Source of the DNA: Capitulum mitella
Taxonomy: Eukaryota > Arthropoda > Thecostraca > Pollicipedomorpha > Pollicipedidae
Direction of reading: 5' to 3'
DNA length: 64,000 nucleotides
Assembly: GCA_030062745.1 (NCBI GenBank)
Contig: CP099848.1
Coordinates: 14,979,568-15,043,567, forward strand
The notes below the pieces were generated by a model that saw nothing but the letters and a program-made list of their open reading frames with translations, made no database searches and was not told the DNA's origin. How positions within the stretch are numbered: the stretch's first letter is position 1; the number at the start of each line of letters is the position of its first letter. Below, in pieces: positions 8,941 through 64,000 of the stretch. The translations under genes and the position numbers were made by a program.

Positions 8941-8944
8941 GGAC

Positions 8945-9395
8945 ATGACGGTCTACCGGACTCTACCGTCGTGCGACGCTGCGTCAGATCATGACGAGTC
9001 TACCGGACTATACCGTCGTGCGACGCTGCGTCAGATCATGACGAGTCTACCGGACTATACCGTCGTGCGACGCTGCGTCAGATCATGACGGTCTACCGGG
9101 CTCTACCGTCGTGCGACGCTGCGTCAAATCATGACGGTCTACCGGACTCTACCGTCGTGCGACGCTGCGTCAGATCATGACGAGTCTACCGGACTATACC
9201 GTCGTGCGACGCTGCGTCAGATCATGACGGTCTACCGGGCTCTACCGTCGTGCGACGCTGCGTCAAATCATGACGGTCTACCGGACTCTACCGTCGTGCG
9301 ACGCTGCGTCAGATCATGACGAGTTTACCGGACTCTACCGTCGTGCGATGCTACGTCAGATCATGACGAATCTACCGGACTCGGTGCTGTTGTGA
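8945..9395. repeat. 46-47 bp minisatellite, about 10 copies
   Basis: Each unit begins ATGACG and contains CTACCGGACT, then TACCGTCGTGCGACGCTGCG. Starts fall near 8945, 8991, 9038, 9085, 9131, 9177, 9224, 9270, 9316 and 9363. Two unit types alternate: a 46 bp type with GACGGTC and a 47 bp type with GACGAGTC. Single-base variants define a higher-order triplet. The last units decay into 9363-9420. All six frames are interrupted or repetitive, so coding is unlikely. Confidence 0.92.
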
Positions 9396-14260: not shown

Positions 14261-14896
14261 CTACCGTGGATGGTTGGTGAGTCCAGAATGGCCTGAGGGA
14301 CGGTCTGGATGCAGTGGGTGGTACAGAGCCGTGCTTATTTGGACGTGAAATGGTGGGGATTTGCGTGCTGCATGGCTCCTGTCCAGTCTGTCATGTTTGA
14401 AGCAAGACTGCGCCGGGTGGTTTTCCGTGGTCTGGACTGTTATGTAGTACCGACACAGTTGTTGTGTTCGTCTGGTCTGTAGTGTCGGTATGTCTGTGTC
14501 GGCCAGAAGGCTGACGATGGGTGTGCAGTGCAGTGCTCCAGGGGCTGCTCTGATGCTGTGGTTTTGTATGATTTCGAGCTTTTGTGCTAGAGGTGGAGAA
14601 ATGCTGTTGAAAATGGAACTGTTGTATTTCGGAATGGGTCTAATGATGGTCTTGTAGAGTCTGAGCAGCGTTTGTCTGTTTCCACCCCAGTCTGTTCCTG
14701 AAAGGCAGCGGAGGATGTTGACGCGCTTCGCGCATCGTTTCGTGGTGTTTTTGATGTGTTGTTGAAATGTCAGTTTCTCGTCTAAGTGGATACCGAGAAA
14801 TTTGAAGCTTTTGACCTGCTCGATGACCTCGCCATGGATGTGCAGGTTACATGGGCCTGGAGCGCGGACGTATGCGACTTTTTTATGCGACCCCAT
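14261..14896 (-). pseudogene. LINE RT thumb/connection fragment
   Basis: The 211-codon frame begins KKVAYVRAPGP and contains VKSFKFLGIHLDEKLTF, the palm/thumb motif of non-LTR RTs. TLLRLYKTIIRPIPKYNSSI and a long connection region follow, leading to RNase H. It overlaps the preceding RT frame by about 115 bp, which marks a frameshift between the two. Confidence 0.85.
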
Positions 14897-15369
14897 TTTT
14901 TACACCACTTTGCAATGTGGCCTAGTCCTGACTGTACGGTGTTCTCGGTTTTTAAGAAGCAGTGGTTAATGGCCCAAATGGCCACGTCGTTCGCAAACAG
15001 CGAATAATGTAGAGCTTTGCAGTGGAGGCCGTCAAACATGTCGTTGATCATGATCAGACAGAGTGTTGGTGAAATGACACTTCCTTGTGGTAGGCCCTGG
15101 TCCTGTGCTCCATTGCCGGAGGTGGTGTTGCCGCATCTGACCTTTTCTGTTCTGTCCCGAAGGAAGTTCCGTAGAAAGTGTGCTAGGTGTCCGCTTAAAC
15201 CTAGCTTGTAGAGTTTGTGTTCAAGTGCGTACTTGTGTACTCGGTCGAATGCGGCCGTGATATCTAAGTATGCAGCCACTGTGGTGCGTTTATAGTTGAG
15301 TCCGTGTTTGATTTCGTGTACGATGCGAATGAGATTGTCTACGGTAACTTGTGTTTCCTGAAGCCGCAC
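14782..15369 (-). pseudogene. LINE reverse transcriptase core fragment
   Basis: This is the longest intact piece of the LINE, 195 codons. It covers fingers/palm motifs A (D at residue 36), B (QGLPQGSVIS at 91-100) and C (FANDV at 125-129). FAND in place of FADD removes one catalytic aspartate. The frame runs on into unrelated residues after about residue 155, where the thumb region continues in the neighbouring frame (14261-14896). Confidence 0.85.
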
Positions 15370-16380
15370 TGGTGCTCGTCGAGCAGGTTTTTCCTTTCCA
15401 AAAAGTGTCGTAGGCGTGTGTTTACCATGCGCTCGACGAGTTTGCTGGCACAGCTGGTGAGTGATGTTGGTCTGTAGCCTTTTGGTTGAGTGTGGTCTTT
15501 CTGGGTTTTGCCAAAGGGATGATTATACTTTGCCGTCAGTTTGGTAGAAAAGAGTCGTTTAAGAAGAGATGGTTAATGGCCGTTAAGAGGCACGTTAAAA
15601 AACTTTACTCAAGTGTCTGAAAAACTGATAATGGATGTCGTCCGACCCAACCGACGTGTTACCGCATTTGCTGATGGCAAAGCCTAATTCGTGCATCGTG
15701 AATGGTGTGTTGTATGGTTTAGTGTTTGTTGACTGAAAGTCCGTGCTGGTTGCAAGTGTCTGAAGTGACGTTGTCAGTGTTGTGTTGTAAGTGCAGTTTG
15801 CTGACACATTGGCGTTATGTGTTTTGAAGTGTTCCACGACGTCGCCAGGTTCTGTGATGTGCTGGTTGTTTATTGCCAGATATGGCAAGGACCTGGCGGT
15901 GGGTGTTTTCGGTGAAAGCGTTTCATGAGTGTCCAGATGGTGCCTGTGGATGTAAATCGATTGAATGTGGATGCATGTTCTTGCCAGGATGCTCTCCTCG
16001 CTTTACGTATGGTAGGGCGGCAGAGTGTTTTTGCTCAGTAGTACTCCAGGAGATGCGCTTCTCACATTACCCTTTTGTACCGCTTTAGAGCTCGGCGTCG
16101 TTTTGCGGTCGCCTGCTGACATTCCGGGACCTAACAAGGCGCTGATGCCTTTTTCTGGGTTGTTTAGATTTTGGAACGGTGGCCTGTGCTGTTGAGCTGA
16201 TGACTCCTAAGACCACACCTATAGTGTGGTCTGTTGAGTTCAGTAATGCGATGTCCACCATAGCCTCGTATTTTGGCCAGTCCGCGCTTTTTCAAATTCC
16301 AGGTAGGTGAGTGCAGTGAATTGTGAACCCAATGAACCTTTAACAGCCACAGGGGCGACGTCATTCCAACGGGCACCTAA

Positions 16381-21552: not shown

Positions 21553-21783
21553 CCACCGCTCACGCTGAAGGAGCGGGCACCAGCTGGACTGCGTTCACGC
21601 TGGTGAAAGAGCGGACACCAGCTGGACTGCGCTCACGCTAGTGAAAGAGCGGACACCAGCTGGACTGCGCTCACGCTGGTGAAGGAGCGGGCACCAGCTG
21701 GACTGCGCTCACGCTGGTGAAGGAGCGGGCACCAGCTGGACTGCGCTCACGCTGGTGAATGAGCGGGCACCAGCTGGACGGGT
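21553..21783. repeat. 38 bp minisatellite, about 6 copies
   Basis: The unit contains GAGCGGGCACCAGCTGGACT followed by GCGCTCACGCTGGTGAAG, with very few differences between copies, so it is young. CCAGCTGG is palindromic and recurs every 38 bp. Confidence 0.93.
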
Positions 21784-56761: not shown

Positions 56762-57022
56762 ATGGCGGAGGAACGCCAGCCGTCGATCCCGACGCTTCAG
56801 CAGTATTTCGGCTCGCCGAAGGCGGACGATGACGTGTTCAGCCAGCTGACGGACTCAGGCCATCACTCGGCTGTGATGGCCAGCCAGGTGAACCTGGCCC
56901 AGTCGGCCCAGGTGGTGCCACCTCCGGCACCGGCCGAGCCGACGCCGCCTGGCCCGCCGCAGCTGCCGCAGGTTTCGGAGATGGCGCCGAACGTGGAGGA
57001 GACCTTCAAGCAGGAGCTGCAG
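56762..57022 (+). CDS. TRAPPC12: TRAPPC12 coding exon 1
   Basis: 87 codons from ATG to CTGCAG|GTGGGA, phase 0. Starts [20 protein letters not shown]; the second half is Pro-rich ([17 protein letters not shown]). The [11 protein letters not shown] segment resembles the PSLSTFFGD segment of vertebrate TRAPPC12. The donor is followed by a stop in the open frame. Confidence 0.85.
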
Positions 57023-60000
57023 GTGGGAGGCTGACACTGGTGCTGTGGTGGTGCTTGAAATGGAAGCAGTATGGCCCTCGAATTGTGCATTAGTATGCTC
57101 GCCTGCCACGCTTTGATTGGGACCAGAGATGTATTTTGCGGTTTTGCGTCGCACAGACGACCTTAACTCGTGATCATTGTGATGGAATTTCTCAAAGGAT
57201 AGTGAAATATCCACCGTTTTTGTCTATGAGGACGTGTCAGCTCGCCATCTTAATGCATGTGCAATTATGACTGCGATTTGAGGGTTAATGTACTGAATCT
57301 TACATGTTTTCCTAGTAAGTCGCCCCCGCAGGTTTGCGTGTTGCCGACGCGACCACATAACAATATCGTTCTGTTGTACTTTCTGTGCATTTCTTGCTCT
57401 CTGAATGGTGCCACATCACTGTTCTGGGACTACTCCCTTGCCCCCTTTTCGTGGGCTTTTATCATCCATTACACGAATTGAAACCATTTATCGGCCTGGT
57501 GTCGCGTGCTCCACAAATGGTTCACTTCCCCGTGCCGTTTGTCTTGCTGGTGTTTGGTCATTTGTGTCTCGTGGCTTCCCCGTGCCGTTTGTCTTGCTGG
57601 CGTTTGGTCATGTGTGTCCGGTGGCCGCCGCCGCCTCCCTGGTCGGGTCTCCCTGGCGACCTGAGTTCGCCCGGCCGGAACTCGGCCGGCCCCGACGCCG
57701 CTTTCGCCGCCAGGAGGCGCTGGCGTACGAGGAGCGCCGGCCACGGTTCAGCATCGGCCCGGAGTCGGCTGACGAGGTGGCCGAGCTGGTGGCAGAAGTG
57801 GAGCGGCTGCACGCGGCCAGCCAAGAGCTGTCGCCGGTAAGTGAGGACGAGCTGGACCTCTGGCTGGTGAAGGGGGACGCCGGCGGTCGGCTGGGGACGC
57901 TCGTCGGCCGGCGTCTCAGGCCAGGGGCGGCTGGGGCGGACGCTGTCCATCGGCTCATTGAGGAGAAAGGGCTGACGGCGGCGGCACGGCCGTGGGGCGG
58001 CGGACAAAATTGGTCGGCTCAGACGGTACCCTTGGACGATGGTCAGCCTCTGCCCTGCGGCTGCGTAGCGGACAGCCTGGAGGATGCAGATGTAGGGCCA
58101 GCTCATTGCATTTTTTTCGGTAGGACGCTCCGTTGGTGAATGTGCTTTTCGTGGATGGGGCCGGCAGCATTTCGGCGCAGCCGACTGGCGCGGCGTCGGC
58201 CCGTGTCTGGAGGCACGATCGACACGACCTCGCCGACGGCCAACTGAGCCCCTTCCTGCGCCTGACCGCCTGAAACCGCGGACCAGAAACGCTGAACTTC
58301 GGGACTCTGTACTCTGGACTCTGGACTCTGGACTCTGACAGTGTCCGCTGACCGCCTCGCGGTTTTATCGCAGACCGCTGAGACGACGTCGTCGGTCGAA
58401 ACCTCCCCTCCCCGCCTGGATATGCCGCCGCTGGCCGCCCCCGCCGCCGCCGACGACGACTTCGGGGACGTCACGCAGCAGGTGAGCGGCTCGCCATTGG
58501 CGGCGAGTGAGGAGAGTAGCAGGCGAGCAGGCACCCAGGGCACTGGTCAGCAGACGTGTGTTGTTTGCAACGACGCCTTTTCTTTATCATACGTTGGCTG
58601 AATGCATGGGGGTTCATACCCCAGATGCATTCGGCTGTTTCGTGTCGTGCAGTTAGCGTAAATTGGCGTTGCTCTCCTAGATGTGCATTTGATTTTAGTC
58701 ACGTCTAAGATGTTTGTTGGTGACACATTCACTTTTCGAGTCTCTGTGGCGTACTCGTTTTTGCGGGTTTTGCACTTTGCTTTTTTCCTTCCTCTTCTCG
58801 GCTACCTGCGGTAAAAAATCCCAGATCCATAGTGTTGCGCCCGTGGTAGGCGTAAGCTGAGGCCAGATGTAGGTGTAGGCTTTTTTAACAATGGTCCGAG
58901 TCCAGCCTGTCATGTAGCAGGTGTATAGGAGGTGCCCATACCGTTTCTGGAAGGTCAGTTCGTGATTGAGAACGCCTAACCCGCTGCGTAGCCTGCAGAC
59001 CTGTAATAGGTTTCTGTGGTACGTCTGGTGGTCATTTCTGGACTGAGGACGCCGTTTACGCCGTGCGGCAGGTGGAGGAGGTCTCCCTGGCGGACGATTC
59101 CGCGCCGCCGCCGCTGCCGGCGCCCTCCTTGGGCGGTTACGACGCTGGCTCGACCAGCGCCGGCCTGGACCTGCCGCTGACGCCAGACGACCCGGACCTG
59201 ATGGCCGGGCTGGCGGGGTCGTCACTGCTGCCCAACACAGAGGTGGGCGTATCTGATGTCACGCGAAACACGGGGCGGTGTCTGTCACTCGCGCGCTTCA
59301 CGCAGGGGCAGATTTTTGTGAGGTTTGTGAGCGTCAAGTTGAACAACACAGTTGAGACAACTAATAGTGTTGAATGCCATACGACTGGGGTCGTTATTAA
59401 TGCACAGGACAGAGGTAAAGGCAGCCACGTATGCATGTCACATAGTTGCCGGTGGTCGTGGGCGTACAGTGCAGATGTGGTGGTCGTTCTGTTCTGCGTC
59501 ACAGAGGCCAGCATCGTCTCGAAGTTCGGGTGTCATCATAAGGTCTCTGCTGGCGCTCTGGCAGCGTGTGGCTTTCTTGATATCTGCCCCCGCTGACCTC
59601 GGCGGTAACCGAGGCCTGTTGCCGGCCCCCAGATGGACCGGCAGTTTGACGCCTGGATCCCGTCGGAGGAGACTCAGAACGTGCTGTCCACCATGTCGCA
59701 GAGTCTGCCGGGTACCTTCTACCCGAGCCGGGATAGCCTGACACTGCCGGGCTGTAGCCTGCAGGCCGACCTGGTGAGACATCAGGAACATCTTTGTGCT
59801 ATTCCAGTACAGTCTGTCTTTTATCGCGGACCTTCCGCCGGGTGTTTCGTGCCGTTAGAATACGTCAGTCTTTGACCAGCTCTCCTCAGACTGACCCGGC
59901 CTCTGGGCTGATGCTGCAGTGCATGTGACCTGACGTGGTCCCCTCCTCAGACGGACCCAGTCTATGAGCTGGTGCTGCAGTACATGTGACCTGACGTGGT

Positions 60001-63000
60001 CCCCTCCTCAGACGGACCCGGTCTCTGGACTGATGCTGCAGTGCACGTGACCTGACGTGGTCCCCTCCTCAGACGGACCCGGTCTCTGAGCTGATGCTGC
60101 AGTACATGTGACCTGACGTGGTCCCCTCCTCAGACGGACCCGGTCTCTGAGCTGATGCTGCAGTACATGACGTCGGCCGAGGCTCGGAGGCGTTCGGTGC
60201 TGACGGCCGACAGCGTGACGCAGGACGACCGCGGCATCCGCCAGCTGATCCAGGTCAGCGTCGGGCCCGGCCGGCTCCGGGCTCGTCCCGCCGGGCTGGC
60301 TCTGCGGAGAGCCGTCAGCGGTCGTATCACGCGGCTCTGGACTTGCCGGGACGACTCGGCGCAGATTTGTGCGTAATTCACCCCCGGATTAATGACGTGA
60401 TGTACTGGCCATGTGAACCAATCCTGATTCCGATTGGATATTTTGTTAAGGCGAATCGATTCGGTTCTGATTCATTGGTGATTAAATGGCAAGTCTGCGA
60501 GTCTGTTGCGATTCTGATTCACTTTGTGTTCAAGTGAATTGACCCTGATTCTGATACACTACGGAAGTGTGAAATTGCAGAGTCGATTCGGAGTCGATTC
60601 GAGTCGATTCAGAATCAAGCAGAGGCCCTGGCTCAGTGTCAATGCAGAGCTTCTGTTGGTGCCGGTGTGAGGCCGATATGCGGTCGCTTGTTGGGCAGCC
60701 GTGCTGTGGTTTTGCGGTTCCCTGAGAGCTGCACAGATTGGCGCGGGCGTACCCGTGCTGCGCCCGGAATGTGGTTGCCGCGATCCTGGCGGGCGGGCTG
60801 TTCCCCGAAACATTCGACCTGGTCCGCTTCGGCCTGACGTGGCGTGGCGTTCCAGCCGGAACACGGGGTGATAAAACCGAAGGTGATAGGTGATATTGAA
60901 GGTGAAGGTAAAGGTGATAAAACTGGGCTAACCTGACGTGGGGTGGCCTGACCCGACCTGCCTTGACTCGACTTTGCTGCTGATTGACGGTGATGTTATC
61001 GAGTGGCGGTGGAACTGATTTAACACGACCTGACCTTTGCCTGCAGGCAGCATGTTTCAGGGCAGTTGTGAACCTGATCTAATCCGACATGACCTTTCTG
61101 CTTGCAGGCTGAGTGTTGCCAGGCAGCTGTGAAGCTGACCTGACCTGGCATGACCTGTGCACTCGCAGGCGGGATGTCATCAGGCAGCTGCGAACCTGAT
61201 GTGACCTGACCTGAACTGAGCTCTGTACCAGCAGCTGGGGTGTTACTGGGCGACTGTGAACCTGACCTGACCTGAACTGACCTCTGTACCAGCAGGCAGG
61301 ATATGACTGGGCAACTGTGAACCCGACCTGACCTGACCTGACCTTTGTACCTGCAGGCGGGGTGTTACCGGGCAGCTGTGAACCTGACTGGTCGCCTGCT
61401 GGCCAACTATGGCCAGGGGTACGGCCGGGTGGGTCAGGTCAGCAAACATACAGCCAACTCGGTACAGGTGAGTTCATCCAGTTTATGTCAGTAGGAACTG
61501 GCAATGCAGTGCAGAAATCCACAGGTATAACTGAGTGACACGATATACAGGTTGAGATGTATCGGGCCATCATTTGTGCTGCGTGCTCGAGCCTGAACGG
61601 TGTTGGCTCCCTTGTTCGGTGAGGAAAAGTCTGCTCGCACGTGAGCTGCATCTGTTTTCGTCGCCTGGACTCGTTTCACAGTGGAATCTTGTGAGACAAG
61701 GCTGAACCCAGTCATGTTGTTTGGCATGCCATATCCACAATGTGCTGTTCACTACATTATCCGTGTTTTAGCTATGGTTCGTTGGTCCAGTACTCGTGTC
61801 AGCTGTAGTTCACTGGTCCGGTGTGCGTGTTTTAGCTGTGTCTCACTGGTCCAGTGCCCATGTTTAGCTGTGGTTCACTGATTCTGTGGGCGTGTTTTAG
61901 CTGCGGCTCACTGATCCTTTGTGCGTGTTTCGGCCGTGGTTCATTAGTCTGTGGCTGCGTTTTAGCTGCGGTTCACTGGTGTCATGTTTGAGCCGTGGTT
62001 GACCGGTCGTTTGTGCGTGTTTCAGCTGTGGTTCACGCGGCTGGCGCTGCTGGTGCGGCTCCGACAATTCTCCGTGGCCGAGCAGGAAGCCGAGGCCTGG
62101 GGAGACCTGGGCACGGCCGACCTCTTCTTCCAGGTTGGTCCCGTCTGTCAGAAGGATCCTGGGCACGGCCGACCTCTTCTTCCAGGTTGGTCCCGTCTGT
62201 CAGAAGGATCCTGGGCACGGCCGACCTCTTCTTCCAGGTTGGTCCCGTCTGTCAGAAGGGTCCTGGGCACGGCCGACCTCTTCTTCCAGGTTGGTCCAGT
62301 CTGTCAGAAGGGTCCTGGGCACGGCCGACCTCTTCTTCCAGGTTGGTCCAGTCTGTCAGAAGGGTCCTGGGCACGGCCGACTTCTTCTTCCAGGTGGTCC
62401 CGTCTGTCAGAAGGGTCCTGGGCACGGCCGACCTCTTCTTCCAGGTTGGTCCCGTCTGTCAGAAGGGTTCCACTCGGTCGGCGGCGTGACGTCTCGGTCC
62501 TCGCGCATCACGGCCTCCGAGCTTCTGGTCCGCCCGTCACTGTGGAAAATGTGCGGAACGCTGTCTGACTGGTGTTCTGAGTTCGGTTCCCGTTGCCACT
62601 GACGGGAATGGTAAAGTTATATCTGTATGCATTCTGTCCGGCTTGCCGTTCCATCGCCATCCAGTAGTGATTTTGGTCTATCCTAGTGCTGCATTGATTA
62701 AACGTGTTCGTTCATCCGGGTCTTCAAACCATTAGACGAACTTTTGTTGTGTCTGTTGTTGATTGGACGATTGAGGCTGCATGGTTTCTTTGTCAGGCAC
62801 GGTTTTATCCATTCTGACCAGGTGACGTATAATATGTCAGAGTGTTTAGCTGCATATCGTGTCTGTGGTTTTCCCGTCCCGGTGAGCTATTTTGTTCTTT
62901 GTGTCATCAACGTGACTCATCTCTCCTCCTCAGCAGTAGTGCTCGGACTTGTGCGGCAGGCGTTGGGGCCAGCTCGAACCTCTTAGTATTGCCGTATTTC

Positions 63001-63472
63001 CGTTCCGATTCAGTGTCATCTGCCTCCGTTACAGTACTACCCGGACCTATACGGCGGTCGTTTGGGCTAGCTGGAGCCTCTCAGTATTGCCGTATTTCCG
63101 TTCTGATTCAGTGTCATCTGCCTCCGTTACAGTACTACCCGGACCTATACGGCGGTCGTTTGGGCTAGCTCGAGCGTCTCATTATTGCCGTATTTCCGTT
63201 TTGATTCATTCTTACCTCGCTCCGTTACAGTACTACCCGGACCTATACGGCGGTCGTTTGGGCTAGCTCGAGCCTCTCAGTATTGCCGTATTTCCGTTCT
63301 GGTTCAGTGTTACCTCGCTCCGTTACAGTACTACCCGGACCTATACGGCGGTCGTCGGGGCTCGCTGGTGCCGTTCAGTTTCCGCGTGCTGCTGGCCGAG
63401 CTGCCGCGCTATATGGGGAAGTACCAGACCAGCCTGGACCGACTGTACCAGATTCACGCTGTATGCGAACAG
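56762..63472 (+). CDS. TRAPPC12: TRAPPC12 (TRAPP complex subunit 12), 5' portion, 9 exons, runs off window
   Basis: Subunit of the metazoan TRAPPIII-type tethering complex, acting in ER-Golgi traffic and autophagy (family knowledge). Nine phase-0 exons join to 429 codons: 56762-57022, 57714-57836, 58374-58481, 59072-59242, 59633-59773, 60134-60253, 61357-61467, 62026-62133, 63329-63472. The N-terminal 220 residues are Pro/Ala/acidic-rich, probably disordered, with [10 protein letters not shown]. The core matches vertebrate TRAPPC12: [78 protein letters not shown] and [14 protein letters not shown]. The C-terminal TPR repeats lie beyond 64000. ATG context is CAGCCATGG. An acceptor-like CACCAG two bases upstream suggests a 5' UTR exon. 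Introns 5-8 are built of splice-junction arrays. Confidence 0.93.
57525..57626. repeat. 50 bp tandem duplication in TRAPPC12 intron 1
   Basis: Two copies of CTTCCCCGTGCCGTTTGTCT followed by TGCTGG-GTTTGGTCAT, with 50 bp spacing. It ends about 90 bp before the exon 2 acceptor and contains no exon sequence. Confidence 0.9.
57714..57836 (+). CDS. TRAPPC12: TRAPPC12 coding exon 2 (acceptor provisional)
   Basis: 123 bp, 41 codons, ending at CCG|GTAAGT. It encodes [20 protein letters not shown] then [20 protein letters not shown], an acidic, probably helical segment. The acceptor CGCCGCCAG is the in-frame phase-0 choice, but an upstream AG is possible because the frame stays open. No clear vertebrate counterpart. 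Confidence 0.65.
58302..58340. repeat. TCTGGACTC short tandem repeat
   Basis: About four copies of a 9 bp unit (ACTCTGGACTCTGGACTCTG) within TRAPPC12 intron 2. Confidence 0.9.
58374..58481 (+). CDS. TRAPPC12: TRAPPC12 coding exon 3
   Basis: 36 codons, GTTTTATCGCAG acceptor, CAG|GTGAGC donor, phase 0. It encodes [20 protein letters not shown] and an acidic tail [10 protein letters not shown]. Low complexity; supported by splice sites and phase rather than homology. Confidence 0.7.
59072..59242 (+). CDS. TRAPPC12: TRAPPC12 coding exon 4
   Basis: 57 codons, CGGCAG acceptor, GAG|GTGGGC donor, phase 0. It encodes [19 protein letters not shown] and [19 protein letters not shown]. Disordered acidic/Pro-rich region. 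Confidence 0.75.
59633..59773 (+). CDS. TRAPPC12: TRAPPC12 coding exon 5
   Basis: 47 codons, CCCCCAG acceptor, CTG|GTGAGA donor, phase 0. [18 protein letters not shown] and [16 protein letters not shown] align with the vertebrate MDRRNDAWLPGEATR and ENLTMPGL region (from memory), opening the conserved core. Confidence 0.9.
59881..60180 (+). repeat. 61 bp splice-acceptor array ending in TRAPPC12 exon 6
   Basis: Five units with exact 61 bp spacing. Exon-like starts after CTCCTCAG fall at 59890, 59951, 60012, 60073 and the real 60134. Each unit holds the intron end TCCCCTCCTCAG and about 36 nt of exon 6 up to TACATG. The four decoys then read TGACCTGACGTGG, whereas the real exon continues ACGTCGGCC. 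Confidence 0.95.
60134..60253 (+). CDS. TRAPPC12: TRAPPC12 coding exon 6
   Basis: 40 codons, CCCTCCTCAG acceptor, CAG|GTCAGC donor, phase 0. [20 protein letters not shown] then [20 protein letters not shown] matches the vertebrate DLMLRFLGEK...VLNADSV...LKQLI stretch. Its first 36 nt, with the acceptor, are tandemly copied four times upstream. Confidence 0.93.
60390..60625. repeat. GATTCGGAATC-rich dispersed repeat in TRAPPC12 intron 6
   Basis: Dense GATTC/GAATC words (GCGAATCGATTCGGTTCTGA, GAGTCGATTCGGAGTCGATT) over about 230 bp, related in style to the block at 28640-29110. No terminal repeats were found. Confidence 0.55.
61021..61395 (+). repeat. 61 bp splice-acceptor array ending in TRAPPC12 exon 7
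   Basis: Exon-like starts follow CAG at 61047, 61108, 61169, 61235, 61296 and the real 61357: spacing 61, 61, 66, 61, 61. Each unit holds TGACCT-rich intron, a TNTGYACC-type polypyrimidine end, GCAG and about 30 nt of exon 7 (to AACCTGAC). The units are more diverged than in the exon 6 array. Confidence 0.92.
61357..61467 (+). CDS. TRAPPC12: TRAPPC12 coding exon 7
   Basis: 37 codons, TACCTGCAG acceptor, CAG|GTGAGT donor, phase 0. [20 protein letters not shown] then [17 protein letters not shown] matches the conserved W/YRAAV-L-GRLL...GQGYG block. Its start is copied five times upstream. Confidence 0.94.
61760..62040 (+). repeat. ~33 bp splice-acceptor array ending in TRAPPC12 exon 8
   Basis: Acceptor-like GTTTTAG/TTTCAG followed by CTGTGGTTCACTGGTCC recurs at 61772, 61803, 61836, 61868, 61901, 61934, 61966, 61993 and the real 62026. 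Spacing is 27-33 bp. One decoy has lost AG (TTTCGG), another reads TTTGAG. Confidence 0.9.
62026..62133 (+). CDS. TRAPPC12: TRAPPC12 coding exon 8
   Basis: 36 codons, GTGTTTCAG acceptor, CAG|GTTGGT donor, phase 0. [20 protein letters not shown] then [16 protein letters not shown] matches the vertebrate [20 protein letters not shown] region. Both ends of this exon are tandemly duplicated into the flanking introns. Confidence 0.94.
62108..62466 (+). repeat. 52 bp splice-donor array starting in TRAPPC12 exon 8
   Basis: The last 26 nt of exon 8 (GGGCACGGCCGACCTCTTCT then TCCAG) and the first 26 nt of intron 8 (GTTGGTCCCGTCTGTCAGAA) repeat in tandem. GT donors lie at 62134 (real), 62186, 62238, 62290, 62342, 62394 and 62445. 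Copies are nearly identical, so this is the youngest array. A long plus-strand frame across it is an artefact. Confidence 0.96.
62925..63365 (+). repeat. 98 bp splice-acceptor array ending in TRAPPC12 exon 9
   Basis: TACTACCCGGACCTATACGG follows CCGTTACAG at 63035, 63133, 63231 and the real 63329, exactly 98 bp apart. A worn copy starts at 62937. Each unit carries about 45 nt homologous to exon 9 and intron sequence with TATTGCCGTATTTCCGTT. Confidence 0.96.
63329..63472 (+). CDS. TRAPPC12: TRAPPC12 coding exon 9 (last in window)
   Basis: 48 codons, CCGTTACAG acceptor, CAG|GTGGGC donor, phase 0. [20 protein letters not shown] then [20 protein letters not shown] matches the vertebrate [20 protein letters not shown] block. 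Its start is copied upstream at 98 bp intervals. Confidence 0.95.
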
Positions 63473-63859
63473 GTGGGCTCGGGCGTCTGCATGTCCTCAA
63501 CTGTGGGTCGGCTTTGATGTTGGGAGGTGCTGTGCGCAGACTCAGATGTTGCTTTTTGGGAGCGTGCGCTTAGTGCTTCGTTATTGTCTGAAGCTGTCGG
63601 TTGTTGGTTTCCGTTGCCTTTGCTGTTTCGTAAGGTTTTGGGGTTGATGCCAGCAGTGGAAAAGATTTTCCGGTGCCGATGGTCTTTGCCATCAGAAGAC
63701 TGGGCTATCCCGACTCCAATGACGTCGTTTGTAGATATTCTCATGTTTCATTATTTGTAGCCGTGCGTGAGTTGCCTACAGACAATGGTATTGATGTCAT
63801 TCTTGACACCTGATATGAACCACATCTGCTGCTTTTGCCTGGCGGGCCCGCCGCCTCCT

Positions 63860-64000
63860 CTGGACCGTGTTGATTGATTGCTGACGATCGTCAGAGGCCG
63901 CCAGACCGTGTTGACTGATGGCTGACGGTCGTCAGAGGCCGCCGGGCCGTGTTGACTGGTGGCTGACGGTCGTCAGAGGCCGCCATACCGTGTTGACTGA
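63860..64000 (+). repeat. 41 bp array at the right window edge (TRAPPC12 intron 9)
   Basis: CCGTGTTGACTG-GGCTGACGGTCGTCAG-AGGCCGCC recurs with CCGTG at 63865, 63906, 63947 and 63988, exactly 41 bp apart. It is cut by the window end. Each unit includes an acceptor-like GTCGTCAG. By analogy with introns 5-8 it may lead into exon 10. Confidence 0.93.

Follow-up and report, generated by a model that had tools for sequence, protein, structure and literature searches.

The window, that is the whole stretch of 64,000 nucleotides analysed here (C10:14979568-15043567), belongs to the 477-Mb genome of the barnacle Capitulum mitella, assembled in 16 contigs, and contains part of a TRAPPC12 gene. Nine exons within 56762-63472 give a joined product of 429 aa, and the remaining exons extend past the window, to 66859 in window numbering. 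A Pfam scan of a 121-aa piece and a PDB search of a 162-aa piece gave no match; after these empty results with short pieces, the identity of the gene was settled by a protein database search. The closest relative of the joined product was TRAPPC12 of Pollicipes pollicipes (77% identity, 100% query coverage), followed by an unnamed transcript-derived protein (69%) and by Amphibalanus amphitrite (66-68%). At the joins between exons 5/6, 6/7, 7/8, and 8/9, residues run on uninterrupted in the Pollicipes and Amphibalanus proteins, and we regard the exon model predicted across the array-bearing junctions as well supported. Each of the nine exons in the window is a multiple of three in length, and the first eight introns are thus phase 0. 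Exons 6 to 9, placed by the joined product and the protein match, are as follows:

60134..60253, forward strand: TRAPPC12 exon 6
61357..61467, forward strand: TRAPPC12 exon 7
62026..62133, forward strand: TRAPPC12 exon 8
63329..63472, forward strand: TRAPPC12 exon 9

Five junctions of this gene, the acceptors of exons 6-9 and the donor of exon 8, were found to sit at the exon end of tandem arrays. The earlier note had proposed arrays at these five junctions, with units of 61, 61, 33, 52, and 98 bp (A1 to A5), and both TRF and the exon model confirmed this. A sixth array, A6, served as a comparison:

59882..60169, forward strand: A1, 61-bp unit x4.7 (TRF), spans the exon-6 acceptor; its final 36 nt are exon 6
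61015..61388, forward strand: A2, ~61-bp unit (TRF 61015-61387, x6.1; superunit of 127 bp), ~71% matches, runs across the exon-7 acceptor and 32 nt into the exon
61751..62051, forward strand: A3, ~33-bp unit (65-bp superunit), degenerate; its link with the exon-8 acceptor comes from similarity alone
62106..62468, forward strand: A4, 52-bp unit x7.0 (TRF), 97% matches, spans the exon-8 donor; its opening 28 nt are exon 8
62954..63366, forward strand: A5, 98-bp unit x4.2 (TRF), spans the exon-9 acceptor; its final 38 nt are exon 9
63863..64000 in the window and on to 64224, forward strand: A6, 41-bp unit (TRF), wholly inside intron 9

The unit contains the exon-intron boundary according to TRF in A1, A2, A4, and A5, and according to similarity only in A3. 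For the latter, the TRF call (61762-61980, p33 x6.8) ends 45 nt short of exon 8, and the sole tie is a copy similar to the exon-8 acceptor (30/40, similarity search) located 92 nt upstream of it. In the exon model, the genuine exon edge is the end copy and the surplus copies are intronic, as had been proposed. Contrary to what had been suggested, exon borders are not where the arrays start or stop: the border falls inside the unit, at a phase that differs from array to array. The description of introns 5 to 8 as largely tandem repeat fits intron 5 (70%) and intron 8 (59%, two arrays) but not intron 6 (31%) or intron 7 (47%). That the repeats are separate and locus-specific, with exon edges tandemly duplicated into introns, is supported; unit lengths differ between junctions, and four acceptors and one donor are affected. 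In a genome search with 60000-61000 as the query (40 of 73 candidates scored), the A1 part matched its own locus only. The same query gave at least 41 genome matches, at least 39 of them elsewhere at 69-80% identity, falling on ~60412-60630 (40 of the 73 candidates scored); at 60412-60630, in intron 6, lies a dispersed element of ~180 bp rich in GATTC-type motifs. Over the whole of TRAPPC12, four of nine non-redundant TRF arrays (period at least 20) span a junction, against 0.86 expected. Arrays without a junction are also present in the gene, since the 41-bp array of intron 9 is purely intronic and stops ~40 nt upstream of exon 10.

Tandem arrays are prone to assembly errors, and in amphioxus the draft genome appeared aberrantly assembled at the globin BflGb6. 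An artefact is nevertheless hardly credible here: A1 to A5 are each shorter than 450 bp, their copies differ from one another (71-97% matches), and five unit types as well as independent loci in other genes, described below, concur.

We then looked at the splice sites carried by the surplus copies. Each 37-nt junction segment served as a probe. When matches of at least 23/37 were accepted, 23 in-register copies were counted (four in A1, five in A2, five in A3, six in A4, and three in A5), with additional A3 copies out of register. Those of A1 are at 59890, 59951, 60012, and 60073 on the forward strand. The proposal that decoy splice sites are retained was borne out: the AG or GT is intact in 22 of the 23, including the AG in all five A2 decoys and the GT in all six A4 decoy donors. 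AG/GT cells match the true site in 45/46 cases and the remaining cells in 674/805, a difference that gives a hint of constraint, though copies are non-independent and were chosen by similarity. Identity to the true junction drops with distance in A1 (37, 35, 34, and 28 of 37) and in A5 (37, 35, and 35 of 37), which would fit a greater age of the outer copies, and A2, A3, and A4 presented no clear distance gradient. When scored with simple PWMs built from consensus frequencies, decoys equalled the true site in 3/3 cases for A5, 3/4 for A1 (the fourth being higher), and 5/6 for A4 (the sixth being lower). In A2, two decoys scored above the true site and three below, and in A3 the four decoys with an AG all scored below.

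If used, the decoy acceptors of A1, A2, and A5, 12 in all, would run into a stop after 11-12 codons. Those of A3 are mixed, with stops after 1-51 codons, and the A4 donor extensions have no stop of their own within the part tested. That A4 is open in all three frames was judged, by reasoning and not by computation, unremarkable for a GC-rich 52-mer. A strong branch-point motif lies 14-45 nt upstream of 11 of 17 decoy acceptors (A1 3/4, A2 5/5, A3 2/5, A5 1/3), and the same motif was looked for and not found upstream of the true exon-8 and exon-9 acceptors. These stops, the AG/GT kept in 22/23 decoys, and the branch-point motifs would all agree with decoys retained for a regulatory role, in which splicing to a decoy acceptor adds a stop, triggers transcript decay, and thereby tunes the TRAPPC12 level. 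Read from the sequence, this possibility appears improbable. Unconstrained sequence often contains early stops; the copies of any one array are non-independent, so that the stops of A1, A2, and A5 amount to three events; A3 decoys are mixed; and, of 27 non-standard combinations of an A4 donor and an A5 acceptor, 6 are in frame without a stop (7/28 when the normal one is included).

To learn whether the same structure occurs elsewhere in this genome, comparison exons were picked by Pfam family (myosin head, Cpn60/TCP1, and kinesin). Of 147 matches to myosin and chaperonin, 97 were used, and of 129 to kinesin, 54, giving 151 exons in 194.5 kb. The myosin set contains repeated alternative exons, and the AMP-binding family (18 matches) was left out of the sample. 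In total, 215 junctions were called and 214 were tested in the main test. A junction was considered positive when its 20+20-nt segment had a copy within 600 nt of the adjacent intron at 28/40 or more. Edges at domain ends were excluded by rule; one of them is C7:17092582, at which the match is overlapped by a 43-bp array. Motifs of the CTGAC/CTAAC type lie 10-40 nt upstream of 111 acceptors (first-run set, those of TRAPPC12 included) 44 times in the sense and three times in the antisense orientation, and this branch-point peak makes the junction calls credible.

Seven of the 214 junctions, three acceptors and four donors, had a self-copy in the adjacent intron (95% interval 1.3-6.6%), and none of 238 shuffled controls did. 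Five junctions passed at 32/40 and four at 34-36/40. All seven were inspected: four are clear, and the remaining three resemble decayed duplications. The clear ones, each with an array spanning the junction, are:

C5:25675782: chaperonin acceptor, p55 array
C14:14835173: chaperonin acceptor
C13:13509956: chaperonin donor, p35 x14.8 array
C2:10684129: myosin donor

A chaperonin intron contains, at C13:13508443-13509545, a 1.1-kb GC-rich array of 28/54-bp units that starts a few bases past the matched end of an exon. Contrary to what had been supposed, the process is thus not confined to one gene, the same structure being found in chaperonin and myosin genes at a rate of 7/214 over three families. 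TRAPPC12 has more positives (5/24 vs. 7/214, Fisher P 0.003), a comparison in which it had been picked for its arrays. At the rate of 7/214, a gene with 24 junctions has five or more positives with a probability of 0.0013. Since about 24,664 genes, with a mean of 7.48 exons, are annotated in Pollicipes, some TRAPPC12-like genes would be expected by extrapolation if junctions are independent.

The earlier note considered that the arrays are anchored on the junctions. Two null models were used, and they gave different answers. In the coverage null, junctions are covered by arrays no more often than intronic points, whether in other genes (7/214, 3.3%, vs. 355/7312, 4.9%; Fisher P 0.41) or in TRAPPC12 (5/24, 20.8%, vs. 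96/504, 19.0%), and by this measure anchoring finds no support. In the terminal-unit null, the end unit of an array must span the junction, and fewer junction events are expected because no other unit of the array can contain a working junction. Here, events were linked on a 1-nt grid, a set of 211 junctions was used, and P values were Poisson. The counts in other genes, at cut-offs that are nested and not independent, were:

28/40: 7 vs. 2.8-3.3 expected, P 0.02-0.05
30/40: 5 vs. 2.2-2.6 expected, P 0.07-0.12
32/40: 5 vs. 1.1-1.4 expected, P 0.006-0.015
34/40: 4 vs. 1.0-1.25 expected, P 0.02-0.04
36/40: 4 vs. 0.9-1.1 expected, P 0.01-0.03

Outside TRAPPC12, the excess is thus 2-5-fold, on small counts (4-7). 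A coarser event count gave 7 vs. 1.8-2.4 expected at 28/40; from 32/40 upward, it overlooked some junction events (3 counted). In TRAPPC12, a gene chosen after the fact, five of seven events were at junctions at 28/40, vs. 0.59-0.72 expected (P 0.0004-0.0009). With TRF alone, 4 of 49 arrays of other genes span a junction vs. 1.5 expected, one of the four being marginal (C6:6098081, 21 bp x2.0).

Such an excess could mean that junctions are preferred birthplaces of arrays, the boundary promoting local duplication through transcription-coupled breaks, R-loops, or repair at a step in composition. The 2-5-fold excess in genes not selected for arrays, which lasts at 32-36/40, the five of seven TRAPPC12 events, and the four TRF arrays all point in this direction. 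However, the coverage null shows no excess, the counts are small, and one TRF case is marginal. Moreover, constraint on the exon copy may keep old junction duplications recognisable for longer and so produce part of the excess. Longer detectability should weaken the excess at high identity, and since the excess persists at 32-36/40, constraint is not shown to account for it. A few per cent of the junctions carry self-copies; arrays may arise there by preference, but this is unproven, and we regard this explanation as tentative. If junctions truly were preferred birth sites in barnacles, a few per cent of junctions in general would be self-copied, introns would steadily grow outward from exon edges and carry spare, mostly stop-generating sites, and TRAPPC12 would be a local hotspot, a picture that we consider, on balance, rather unlikely.

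The earlier note recognised no named element class, but the structure is that of the amphioxus "mirages", the name given in PMC3087553 and PMC3902484 to tandem repeats spanning exon-intron boundaries. Examples there are Adh3 (units of 10-72 bp), the globins BflGb6 and BflGb9 (150-160 bp), PGBD5 (60 and 108 bp), and troponin C. Many copies there carry AG/GT, and regular splicing of the globin and Adh3 genes is reported to be undisturbed (PMC3087553, PMC3902484). The description is credited to Canestro 2002. Like these mirages, the barnacle units span the boundary at either end of an exon and differ in length from locus to locus; the genuine exon forms the end copy, and copies have AG/GT. Unlike them, the host is a barnacle and not a lancelet, and a single gene has five arrays. 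Amphioxus mirages are also marked by length polymorphism and somatic instability; the barnacle arrays are known from one assembly.

Since both acceptors and donors are affected, at differing unit phases, we consider it probable that the TRAPPC12 arrays are mirage-type minisatellites, born as minisatellites are in an array-rich genome and tolerated at junctions. A short tandem duplication (33-98 bp) would have chanced to span a splice junction, and the unit would then have multiplied on the intron side by unequal exchange or slippage. The outermost exon-side copy would remain functional, selection preserving the exon and splicing presumably picking the exon-proximal site, and the surplus copies would for this reason be carried as intron at little cost. 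TRAPPC12 would then stand at the extreme of what chance can yield in a genome rich in arrays, and in a part of it that is itself rich in them.

A gain of introns by tandem duplication of exon edges, the AGGT model raised in the earlier note, was also considered. The case resembles that of potato RdRp (PMC4974935), where a new intron arose from a duplication across an intron-exon boundary; here, introns that already existed were enlarged, and every array sits inside a single one. In addition, the annotated Amphibalanus proteins, read by eye, include an isoform without exactly exons 5-6, joining exon 4 to exon 7. Owing to this isoform, the positions of the exon-4 donor and of the exon-7 acceptor, these two only, look shared with this distant barnacle. 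We hold intron gain to be improbable.

Returning to mirage-type minisatellites, human segmental-duplication genes have internal tandem repeats at exon-intron boundaries that alter or extend introns, and they differ in that the variation is among human paralogues and the repeat is often also kept in transcripts (PMC2812944). Minisatellites of earthworm metallothionein were rejected as a parallel, being intronic and not reported as junctional. Turri, in 1995, is said to have described a minisatellite with multiple splice donors in human 6-16 (IFI6/G1P3), and, judged by the title of that paper, the likeness is a minisatellite providing repeated splice donors. A search of open-licence papers found no barnacle mirage case, which does not prove that mirages have never been reported in arthropods; an arthropod paper met in it reportedly deals with coding tandem repeats in a prawn. 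The barnacle arrays are a real case of a known phenomenon, in a phylum without an earlier case in limited literature searches, and come with a frequency estimate. They carry the amphioxus phenomenon to an arthropod, and the rate of 7/214 sampled junctions makes genome-wide tests straightforward, both of intron growth at exon edges and of the choice of the spliceosome among near-identical neighbouring sites.

Elsewhere in the window, a Pfam scan of 20 of the 331 ORFs of at least 70 aa found no second gene as a local control; an RVT_1 match was solid and a DAHL match was below the cut-off. The former is a reverse-transcriptase domain fragment at 14785-15522 on the reverse strand (E 6.4e-16). An Rfam search at gathering thresholds gave no match. 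Strong minisatellites were called by TRF at 8944-9382 (47 bp x9.4) and 21566-21779 (38 bp x5.6), where no gene was identified. Finally, TGACCTGAC, a tandem CTGAC resembling the branch-point motif, occurs 33 times in sense and three times in antisense in 206 kb of TRAPPC12 and sampled genes, 18 of the 33 sense occurrences coming from TRAPPC12 and one chaperonin intron. Over the window's first 56 kb, it occurs once in each orientation.
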